In this document: in pieces, positions 3,600-62,101 of the stretch
Position numbering within the stretch: the stretch's first letter is position 1
How the letters are laid out: each line of letters begins with the position of its first letter
From: Methanobrevibacter sp.
GTDB lineage: Archaea > Methanobacteriota > Methanobacteria > Methanobacteriales > Methanobacteriaceae
DNA length: 64,000 nucleotides
Direction: 5' to 3'
NCBI RefSeq assembly: GCF_030539875.1
Contig: NZ_JAUNXI010000007.1
Span: forward strand, 1 to 64,000
Position numbers and translations under genes: made by a program
The notes under the pieces: generated by a model
The model's database searches: none
Seen by the model: only the letters and a program-made list of their open reading frames with translations
Told to the model about the DNA's origin: nothing

Positions 3600-5204
3600 T
3601 CAAGCTTCTGCTGTTTCATTAATACGATTCCAATCATAGATGTTTCCCCATATGTCTCCTCCGTGAGGGAAAATGAGTTGTGTGCTATTGGATATGTTTA
3701 ATGAATCACTTACGAAGTAGGTGTATGTCATAGTTCCAATCCAAAGATATGGATTATTTGTATTAGCTTGTTGAGATGCTTGAGACCATGTGCTGTATGA
3801 GCTATTTAAATCTAATTCGAGTGCTTTATCAACTAATGAATCTACAGCACTGTCATTAAGATATTCTGGATTGTCGTATCCCATACCTGCTAATCTGGAA
3901 TCATATTGGTGTGCAATAGCATATGGGTCTGCTGAACCGAATCCCCATACAACTCCTTGGCTGTATGCGTTACGTTCGATATCATCCCAACTTCCACCTT
4001 GTGGAATAATTTCAATACCGAATTCTTTAGCTTGTTCTGCAACTGCTACTGCAATTGCCTGTCTTTCTTTTGCTGAGCTGTAATGTATGTTGAATGATGC
4101 TTTTTGACCATCTTTTTCAACTATTCCATCACCGTCAGTATCTTTCCATCCGGCAGCTGAAAGAATAGATTTTGCTTCTTCTATATTGCCGTCTTTAAAT
4201 GTTGGTTCACTTGCCCATGCTAATTGATTAGCTACACCGTTGTAGGATACATTACCGAATCCGTTTAATGAGCCTTCAAATACTTGTTCTCTGTTAATAC
4301 CAACGCTTAATGCTTGTCTTATAGCAGGGTCTCCAGTTACGTTATTACCGATTGAAACATTATTTGGAGATAATTTTCCTTCATCCATTTGTGTAGGTAA
4401 TGAGATTCCACGCACATCGACTGAATCGAAGTATTCAAGATGGTATCCGTCTACTGTTTCATTTGCGTATGCAACCGGCACTTCTGCAATATCTACATCT
4501 CCATTTTTAACTGCCGCAAATGCTGCATCTTGATCAAGGAAAAGGTTAGTTATTTTTTCGAAGTATGGTTCTTTTCCATAGTAGTCATGATTTTTCTCTA
4601 AGATGTATTGTTGTCCTTTATCCCATTGAGCCAATTTATAAGGTCCAGATCCAATAGGGTTTTGTCCGTATGACTCTTCATTATAGCTAGCTTCTGGTAC
4701 GATTCCAACATCAGTTAATTTGTTAATAAATGTTGAATCTTTTTTGTCAAGTGTAAATATTACTTTATTCCCATCAGATTTAACTTCTTTCATGGAACCT
4801 AAATCAGCACCTTCGCCTAATTCTTTTGCTTTAGTGTATGAGAATACTACATCGTCTGCGGTTAATTTGGAACCATCAGTAAAATTTACATCGTCACGTA
4901 TAGTTACGGTGTATGTTTTCAAATCACTTGAAATCTCATAGTCGGTAGCCAAATCATTTACAAAATTGTTGTCTTTGTCTCTTTTAAGAAGTGTACTTTG
5001 TATGAGTGGTTCTGTTCCAGAGTCGTGGTATCCCCAACCGTGCATCGGATCAAAACCGTATTCTGGTTCTTCACCGTGAGCTGCAACACATGTTACTAAT
5101 TCATTTTCAGCACGTTCTGTGTTTCCCCCATTTAAAGCAACTACAGCTATGCCCGCTATTGCAATAACAGCTACAACTGCATAGATAATATATTTTTTTT
5201 CCAT
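3600..5204 (-). CDS. Nickel/peptide ABC transporter substrate-binding protein, NikA/DppA type (copy 1)
   Basis: Extracytoplasmic solute-binding protein of family 5, 534 residues. Residues about 4-24 form a hydrophobic N-terminal anchor. There is no lipobox Cys, so it is probably held by an uncleaved helix or released after cleavage. The SBP family 5 fold is recognisable from DLATDYEISSDLKTYT, the GSGPYKL motif and the late GINREQV block. A DTDGDGIVEKDG stretch looks like a Ca-binding loop. Start ATG 5204 has GAGG eight bases upstream. It is first gene of the operon; an AGTATTAC inverted repeat brackets its TATA region. The paralogue at 9283-10905 has the same layout. Nickel is a plausible substrate, since methanogens need it for F430 and hydrogenases, but peptide uptake is not excluded. 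Confidence 0.88.
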   Translation of the reverse strand: MEKKYIIYAVVAVIAIAGIAVVALNGGNTERAENELVTCVAAHGEEPEYGFDPMHGWGYHDSGTEPLIQSTLLKRDKDNNFVNDLATDYEISSDLKTYTVTIRDDVNFTDGSKLTADDVVFSYTKAKELGEGADLGSMKEVKSDGNKVIFTLDKKDSTFINKLTDVGIVPEASYNEESYGQNPIGSGPYKLAQWDKGQQYILEKNHDYYGKEPYFEKITNLFLDQDAAFAAVKNGDVDIAEVPVAYANETVDGYHLEYFDSVDVRGISLPTQMDEGKLSPNNVSIGNNVTGDPAIRQALSVGINREQVFEGSLNGFGNVSYNGVANQLAWASEPTFKDGNIEEAKSILSAAGWKDTDGDGIVEKDGQKASFNIHYSSAKERQAIAVAVAEQAKEFGIEIIPQGGSWDDIERNAYSQGVVWGFGSADPYAIAHQYDSRLAGMGYDNPEYLNDSAVDSLVDKALELDLNSSYSTWSQASQQANTNNPYLWIGTMTYTYFVSDSLNISNSTQLIFPHGGDIWGNIYDWNRINETAEA

Positions 5205-60835: not shown

Positions 60836-61627
60836 ATGTTTTATTTAGTGGGTTTAGGACTATTTGATGAAAAGGACATATCCTTAAAAGGATTGGAATG
60901 TTTGAGAAATGTTGATAAAATTTATGCCGAGTTTTTCACCTCAAGATTATTCGGCTCAAGCTTTGATGCTATTGAAGAACTAATCGGTCAAAAGATTGAA
61001 GTTTTAGTAAGGGGCGAAGTTGAAGAGGAAAGTAAATTTATAAACGAAGCTAAAACACGGGATGTTGCTTTAATTACTGGTGGCGATCCCCTAATTGCAA
61101 CAACCCACAGTGATTTTTTAGTTCAATGTTCTAAAAAAGGAATTGAGTATGAAGTTATTCATGGTTCATCAATTTTATCTTCAGCTCCTGCAATTTCCGG
61201 TCTTCAGGGTTATAAATTCGGTAAAGTAACAACCATTCCGTTTCCTGATTATAATTTTTATCCGAAATCTCCTTATGAAGCTATTGAAGAAAATTTAAAA
61301 ATGGATCTTCACACTCTTGTTTTACTTGACATTCAGGCTCACAAGGACCGTTATATGACTGTTAACCAAGGTTTGGAATATTTGATGAATATCCATGATA
61401 CTCTTGACAGGGAAGGTTTGGTTTGTGAAAACACTTTGGCAATGGGTATTGCCCGTGTAGGTTCAAAAGATGTTTGTGTTAAAGCAGGTGCAATCAGTGA
61501 ATTGATTGATTTTGATTTTGGAGGTCCGCTTCACTGTATTGTAATTCCATCAAAACTTCACATTGTTGAGGCGGAATATCTGGTGGAAGTTGCTGGAGCA
61601 GATTCAAGTATTCTTGATGATGTTTGA
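60836..61627 (+). CDS. dphB: Diphthine synthase
   Basis: 263 residues, typical length. FYLVGLGLFDEKDISLKGLE and GGDPLIATTHSD are the family motifs of the SAM-dependent tetrapyrrole-methylase-like fold. It methylates the modified His of EF2 in diphthamide synthesis. No Shine-Dalgarno; the start is probably leaderless. The stop lies just a few bases from the 3' end of the leftward RNA element B. Confidence 0.92.
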   Translation: MFYLVGLGLFDEKDISLKGLECLRNVDKIYAEFFTSRLFGSSFDAIEELIGQKIEVLVRGEVEEESKFINEAKTRDVALITGGDPLIATTHSDFLVQCSKKGIEYEVIHGSSILSSAPAISGLQGYKFGKVTTIPFPDYNFYPKSPYEAIEENLKMDLHTLVLLDIQAHKDRYMTVNQGLEYLMNIHDTLDREGLVCENTLAMGIARVGSKDVCVKAGAISELIDFDFGGPLHCIVIPSKLHIVEAEYLVEVAGADSSILDDV

Positions 61628-61630
61628 TTT

Positions 61631-61754
61631 AAAATAAGGGGGGAGAAGAAGTAGTACTGTTTTTCCTACTTCTTTTTGTTTTTTCATGATTTTCTTTAGT
61701 GATTAAAGAGGCTGATTTGTGTTAATCAAGGATATGAATTTTACTTCATATCGT
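61631..61754 (-). ncRNA. Candidate C-rich small RNA, copy B
   Basis: No protein-coding frame supports this region. Read leftward: a TATA-like TTTAAATAT (61775-61783) predicts a start near 61753; the transcript then opens with a perfect hairpin (stem 61745-61752 with 61731-61738), has a middle stem (61722-61727 with 61701-61706) whose loop reads CACAAATCAGCCTCT, then a 3' hairpin (61666-61674 with 61646-61654, 9 bp) and CTCCCCCC followed by TTATTTT. Length about 120 nt. The order and many bases repeat in copy A. On the plus strand the 3' hairpin plus T-run can also act as a dphB terminator. Confidence 0.6.
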
Positions 61755-61774
61755 ATATTAGTTTTATTTTAAAA

Positions 61775-61783
61775 ATATTTAAA
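61775..61783 (-). promoter_or_regulatory. TATA-like box of small RNA copy B
   Basis: Read leftward as AAAAGATTTAAATATTTTT with the box near its centre, about 26 bases before the predicted RNA start. The matching position in copy A has TTTATATAAT. Confidence 0.5.
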
Positions 61784-61851
61784 TCTTTTTATTTTATTTT
61801 TTCAATGTCTGTTAAAAAATAGTTACAATAAATTTAATTTTTTTTAATTTT

Positions 61852-61981
61852 AAAAAAGAAAAGGGGGGGAGTGGAAGTAGGATGTTTCTTCTACTTCCTA
61901 AAATAAACATTTTCTATCATTTTGGAGATTATAAAATGATTGATGTTTTTAATATTTGAAATGAATTTTTCTTCATATCGT
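61852..61981 (-). ncRNA. Candidate C-rich small RNA, copy A
   Basis: Read leftward: TATA box TTTATATAAT (62001-62010) with AAAAAGA before it, predicted start near 61980, and the same opening ACGATATGAAG as copy B. The first hairpin (61972-61979 with 61958-61965) has one mismatch; a middle perfect 8-bp hairpin (61933-61940 with 61916-61923) has the loop ATAATCTCC; a 3' hairpin (61891-61898 with 61873-61880, 8 bp) precedes ACTCCCCCCC and a T-rich end (TTTTCTTTTTT, 61852-61862). The gap between dphB and marR is otherwise empty. A base-pairing regulator of G-rich Shine-Dalgarno sites is a reasonable guess. Confidence 0.62.
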
Positions 61982-62000
61982 TTATTAGTTATATCTTACT

Positions 62001-62010
62001 ATTATATAAA
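62001..62010 (-). promoter_or_regulatory. TATA box of small RNA copy A
   Basis: TTTATATAAT read leftward, preceded by AAAAAGA. This is close to the TATA boxes seen at the tRNA and histone genes in the same window. Confidence 0.55.
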
Positions 62011-62101
62011 TCTTTTTATTTGATTTTTCAGATATTGCCGTGTAAGTTACTTTGACATTCAATAGAATTTTTAAATAATTGTTTTTATAAAATATATCTT
62101 G

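Follow-up and report, generated by a model that had tools for sequence, protein, structure and literature searches.

A conserved putative small RNA family of Methanobrevibacter with predicted antisense pairing to the translation start of the formate dehydrogenase gene fdhA

The window, i.e., the whole stretch of 64,000 nucleotides analysed here, contains two small units, A and B, between dphB, which encodes diphthine synthase (60836-61627, plus strand; TIGR00522, 325 bits), and a marR-like gene. Both units lie on the minus strand, convergent with dphB, and follow the same plan: their alignment comprises a common archaeal promoter AAAAGATTTAWATA, then ACGATATGAAG, a 5' hairpin, a GAAGTAG...CTACTTC hairpin, a C-run and a T-rich tract, and TTTAWATA is situated ~30 nt 5' of CGATATGAAG in both. 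Compared with shuffled sequences, RNA folding of the minus strand was strong (z -5.6 for unit A and -4.5 for unit B), whereas that of the plus strand was weaker (z about -2.4 in the A region and about -2.5 in the B region). The minus-strand location, this folding and the regular spacing of the promoters bear out the first-pass annotation, which had described two leftward units of one plan. An Rfam cmscan of the window returned two tRNAs only, with no unit above the curated gathering threshold, and the genome holds just two copies of the putative sRNA, A and B.

Unit B (about 61863-61981, minus strand), with predicted ends at ACGAT (5') and the C-run (3'), matches a covariance model built from 65 aligned units (R2) at 61864-61980 with an E of 2e-16. 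Its promoter (62003-62017), recognised from the sequence, consists of a BRE-like AAAAAGA and the TATA box TTTATATA, 30 nt before CGAT. On the same strand follow a 5' hairpin (61958-61980), supported by folding and by stem analysis of the family; the middle hairpin with the antisense seed, UCAAUCAUUUUAUAAUCUCCAAAAUG (61918-61943), identified by complementarity to the organism's own fdhA; a 3' hairpin GGAAGUAG/CUACUUCC (61873-61898), supported like the 5' hairpin; and the 3'-terminal C-run (61863-61869), which is conserved in the family and followed by a T-rich tract. Unit A (61638-61754, minus strand) has a TATA box TTTAAATA (61776-61783), a 5' hairpin (61731-61753) and a 3' hairpin GAAGUAG/CUACUUC (61648-61672), the hairpins both predicted by folding. 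The C/U-rich middle loops of the two units had been regarded as equivalent, which they are not: unit B alone keeps the loop of the family, whereas the middle region of unit A, GCCTCTTTAATCACTAAAG, is a diverged version of it. Judged by folding, alignment and duplex energy, unit A is a duplicate from which the seed has disappeared, and no target was detectable for its loop CTTTAGTGATTAAAGAGG (six matches including itself vs. four in the control). A conserved peptide was rejected as the product of the units because the ATG of B opens 15 codons and that of A only two. A promoter of its own and the lack of a conserved open reading frame, as in trans-acting sRNAs that mask ribosome-binding sites, thus characterise the family.

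A covariance model built from A and B alone, a search already proposed in the first-pass annotation, detected the RNA in the organism's own genus only, in 54 genomes out of 139 searched across the taxonomic family. With the model from 65 units, matches were obtained in ~58 of the 67 genus genomes, counting sRNA loci and leaving out matches on the opposite strand of fdhA, and in one genome each of three other genera, where the copies are diverged; these three were borne out by a pattern search, which also brought up two further genomes of genus g9. Since the RNA recurs in ~58 of 67 genomes, chance can be excluded. The dphB gene adjoins it in 57 of 60 genus loci and is also its neighbour in other genera, and two recognisable units are present in 16 of the 52 loci parsed. 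The marR gene is no constant partner, being found at only 9 of 60 loci, some of which are short, and MarR was therefore rejected as a linked regulator. A third unit, weak and diverged (R2 E 3e-4), lies outside the main locus of one genome (L392, G038:C5:38025-38126), and another genome carries one copy (L049, G073:C14:75234-75333) away from dphB, Trm5 and MarR, with a ferredoxin-like reading frame nearby. In a search of 84,980 genomes, a 20-mer of the loop was nearly confined to Methanobrevibacter, the contigs bearing it being named as such and including M. millerae, M. thaueri and M. olleyae. Three matches outside the genus fall in one coding sequence common to clostridia and were discarded. 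In a MAG labelled 'Cellulosilyticum' (L280, JAGAVZ010000229.1), the same leader precedes an fdhA that resembles the Methanobrevibacter gene; this contig is probably mis-binned.

The distance from the start of TTTAWATA to CGAT is 30 nt in 59 and 29 nt in 7 of 68 units (66 of 68 together). In the predicted stems 91.6% of the cells are paired, vs. at most 52% when the structure is slid along the alignment, and pairing in the middle stem amounts to 86.7% across 65 units. Nine pairs are changed on both sides, vs. 4.0 in shuffles that do not keep relatedness, so that this result is support for the stems and not a probability; the 5' hairpin showed more compensatory changes once other genera were added. 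The lack of an Rfam match, the wide occurrence in the genus and the presence of some compensatory changes all agree with the earlier proposal of an undescribed RNA family with conserved stems. Column conservation is highest in the middle loop (mean identity 96.5% for AATCTCCA and 93.5% for CATTTTATAATCTCCAAAAT), and the conserved element is this middle hairpin, CAUUUUAUAAUCUCCAAAAUG, not the C-run. These data bear on the proposal that there is no sRNA at all and that the hairpins merely terminate plus-strand read-through from dphB. The 3' hairpin of unit A does lie just past dphB, with T-runs next to it on the plus strand, but conservation of both the promoter and the 5' hairpin points to the minus strand, plus-strand folding is the weaker, and the most conserved part is a loop that matches fdhA, all of which renders this proposal scarcely credible.

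Read on the other strand, the conserved loop is a ribosome-binding site, a spacer and a start codon, GGAG-ATTATAAA-ATG. A search of the organism's own genome with the loop gave exact matches at the sRNA itself, a formate dehydrogenase gene, a membrane-protein gene and argC. The formate dehydrogenase alpha gene, fdhA (TIGR01591, 701 bits), is on a different contig (C11) from the sRNA, in the gene order fdhC-fdhA-fdhB, in which fdhC encodes a formate/nitrite transporter and fdhB is labelled by an F420-hydrogenase-beta-like match and its position. The sRNA hairpin is an almost perfect 25-letter antisense of the fdhA translation start, including its Shine-Dalgarno site and start codon. In the organism's own genome, 26 contiguous pairs can be drawn between unit B and this region, and the predicted duplex with the fdhA leader amounts to -35.4 kcal/mol for unit B and -14.1 kcal/mol for unit A. 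The first-pass annotation had suggested looking for targets at G-rich translation starts, and this match, which it had missed, is what such a search yields. Its idea that C-rich parts pair with Shine-Dalgarno sites is supported for the CUCC of the unit B loop, which pairs with GGAG, but not for the C-run. In the gap between the organism's fdhC and fdhA (L394 about 3813-3896) a terminator-like hairpin GAAGC...GCTTC with a T-run is followed by a TATA-like stretch, and therefore fdhA may have a short leader of its own.

When the 67 genus genomes were searched with the 25-mer ATTTTGGAGATTATAAAATGGTTGA, allowing up to three mismatches, matches in 61 of them fell nearly all at sRNA loci and fdhA starts; the reversed 25-mer, used as control, gave none in any of the 67. 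The motif is present in 38 of the 44 fdhA leaders read, and at fdhA in nearly every genome in which this gene follows fdhC. Five of the six leaders without it belong to an fdhA that follows an fdhB-like gene instead of fdhC, and the sixth (G101) holds a near-match. When each sRNA was paired with the fdhA leader of the same genome, the predicted duplex energy was mostly -28 to -41 kcal/mol, vs. about -12 to -16 kcal/mol in three genomes without the motif; several diverged second copies likewise gave weak duplexes. The antisense strand of the fdhA leaders weakly matches the RNA covariance model, which might hint at an origin of the sRNA by inverted duplication, but the score probably derives mostly from the common 25-mer.

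For a genome-wide comparison, the complete genome G042 of a relative (1,853,160 bases) was scanned on both strands in 40-nt windows with a step of 20 against its own sRNA core. Apart from the sRNA itself, the fdhA start scored best (-33.3); next came a membrane-protein start situated 15 nt before mobA (-28.9), and then moaE (-26.5); the best site for the reversed core was -26.4. The same three genes are the only ones among 1661 predicted in G042 with GGAGATTA[TA]AAA directly 5' of the start. In the window's own genome, too, mobA follows the membrane-protein gene, and the site lies in a 21-nt gap inside the operon. The protein (own genome L393:1785-2546, C26; G042:C1:225965-226717) matched no NCBIfam family. 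Because its site, GGAGATTA, is kept in nearly all genus leaders read, while in most species the moaE starts have only GGAGAT in common, mobA is a probable second target on sequence grounds and moaE a doubtful one; the moaE site is too unspecific to be retained as a conserved target. The exact 15-mer at argC in the own genome was likewise set aside, argC being absent among the matching gene starts of G042. The start of a small two-cluster ferredoxin gene also matches the loop (G042:C1:197816; G064:C136, L156; CATTTTGGAGATTATAAAATGGCTGA in G064), which makes it a possible further target. A molbindin (Mop) gene of the own genome has GGAGATTATGAAATG at its start (G000:C8:43334-43348), a sequence that pairs with the sRNA loop when one G-U pair is included.

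The other genera provide one clear case of co-change between loop and leader. The fdhA leader of G003 (genus g3) deviates at a single base (TATATAATGG), and the sRNA loop carries the matching change (CCATTATATAATCTCC). This is support rather than proof of pairing, since it is a single event that a shared DNA operator could also yield. Mismatched cases occur as well: G078 and G081 have an intact seed and yet an fdhA without the site, in G041 the fdhA site is intact and the sRNA loop degenerate, and most g9 genomes keep the fdhA site, with the sRNA found in only three of them; in the others, diverged copies may have been missed. A DNA operator, CATTTT-N9-AAAATG, through which one transcription factor governs the sRNA locus as well as fdhA, would reduce the antisense relation to mere orientation. 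It would account for the partly palindromic motif, for the same DNA word at both places and, through an altered specificity of the protein, for the co-change in G003. The conserved core GGAGATTATAAAATGGTTGA is asymmetric, however, and spans exactly the Shine-Dalgarno site and the start codon; its orientation is antisense in all sRNA units read; the fdhA leaders of g9 and g6 mostly also read TGGAGATTATAAAATGGTTGA but lack the CATTTT arm, and thus the palindrome; and the mobA site sits within an operon. We therefore consider an operator improbable.

In our view it is likely that unit B belongs to a new family of trans-acting antisense sRNAs and represses translation of fdhA through kissing hairpins, unit A being a seedless copy. 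What the sequence itself shows is a family with a promoter and stems and with a co-conserved complementarity to fdhA; from this we infer how the RNA would be expressed, would kiss and repress its target, and would be triggered. The archaeal promoter of unit B would drive transcription of an RNA of about 115-120 nt in the direction of dphB, and this RNA would expose, in its middle hairpin, the loop UAAUCUCC between the arms CAUUUU and AAAAUG. The start of the organism's fdhA is predicted to fold into a mirror of this hairpin, CAUUUU-GGAGAUUAU-AAAAUG, the loop of which would contain the Shine-Dalgarno site and the 3' arm the start codon; this mirror folding makes a loop-loop interaction plausible. 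Most likely, according to the predicted structures, the two loops kiss (UAAUCUCC with GGAGAUUA), after which the duplex would spread to about 25 bp. It would then hide both the ribosome-binding site and the start codon, and for this reason translation of fdhA would be repressed, probably together with that of fdhB. The same pairing might conversely activate fdhA, e.g., by opening the leader hairpin, which the start might need, or by protecting the mRNA, but a duplex that covers the Shine-Dalgarno site and the start codon should block the ribosome, and activation is thus very unlikely. As a repressor, the sRNA most likely switches the production of formate dehydrogenase off. The weaker conserved site ahead of mobA hints that this RNA would also tune synthesis of the molybdopterin guanine dinucleotide (MGD) cofactor that formate dehydrogenase needs.

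Antisense pairs with kissing hairpins are known from CopA/CopT of plasmid R1, in which CopA is encoded in cis, opposite its target. Unit B and the fdhA leader resemble this pair in that two mirror hairpins with complementary loops are predicted, one of them presenting the ribosome-binding site or leader, with kissing here a deduction from these folds, but here the sRNA is encoded far from fdhA. Methanosarcina mazei sRNA162 is reported to be a trans-acting methanogen sRNA; the mRNA whose ribosome-binding site it masks is postulated to encode a product that represses genes for the use of methylamines (PMC3510493; PMC3600222). Hence sRNAs of this kind are already known in methanogens. As described there, sRNA162 shares with our candidate its action in trans and the masking of a ribosome-binding site for metabolic control, and conserved complementarity to the ribosome-binding site of an unlinked gene, characteristic of this kind, was indeed found here. 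It differs in that it comes from another order, and our candidate has fdhA as its target and a longer complementarity (25 nt); the likeness is one in kind.

The trigger could be the supply of hydrogen vs. formate, or a shortage of molybdenum or tungsten (Mo/W), as both would fit the set of targets. The latter recalls RyhB, a metal-sparing sRNA of bacteria. IsrR is another such bacterial RNA (PMC11257911). By analogy, we can only tentatively, and with more doubt than confidence, envisage an archaeal counterpart of RyhB for Mo/W, i.e., a kissing-hairpin sRNA that Methanobrevibacter-like gut methanogens have retained over a long time and that shuts down formate dehydrogenase and MGD synthesis together. 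Such a shut-off, when metal or formate is short, would spare Mo/W for the essential formylmethanofuran dehydrogenase. If this is true, a metal enzyme and its cofactor genes would be repressed by pairing at translation starts, as by RNAs of the RyhB and IsrR type, with Mo/W as the metal, Archaea as the domain and a metal trigger that is here a guess as the differences. Among the targets expected on this analogy, fdhA is strong, the site in the mobA operon is conserved and that of moaE is not.

Formate is, together with hydrogen, a main substrate for methanogenesis of gut and rumen Methanobrevibacter. The literature searched, which included few subscription papers, contained no description of this sRNA family and nothing on post-transcriptional control of formate dehydrogenase in Methanobrevibacter, by an sRNA or otherwise. 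As far as that literature goes, this would be the first sRNA family of Methanobrevibacter with a predicted target. If the proposed pairing is true, the target of an archaeal trans-acting RNA would be readable from comparative genomics alone, and such a conserved sRNA, directed specifically at a 25-nt target, would constitute a concrete switch acting on the choice between hydrogen and formate.
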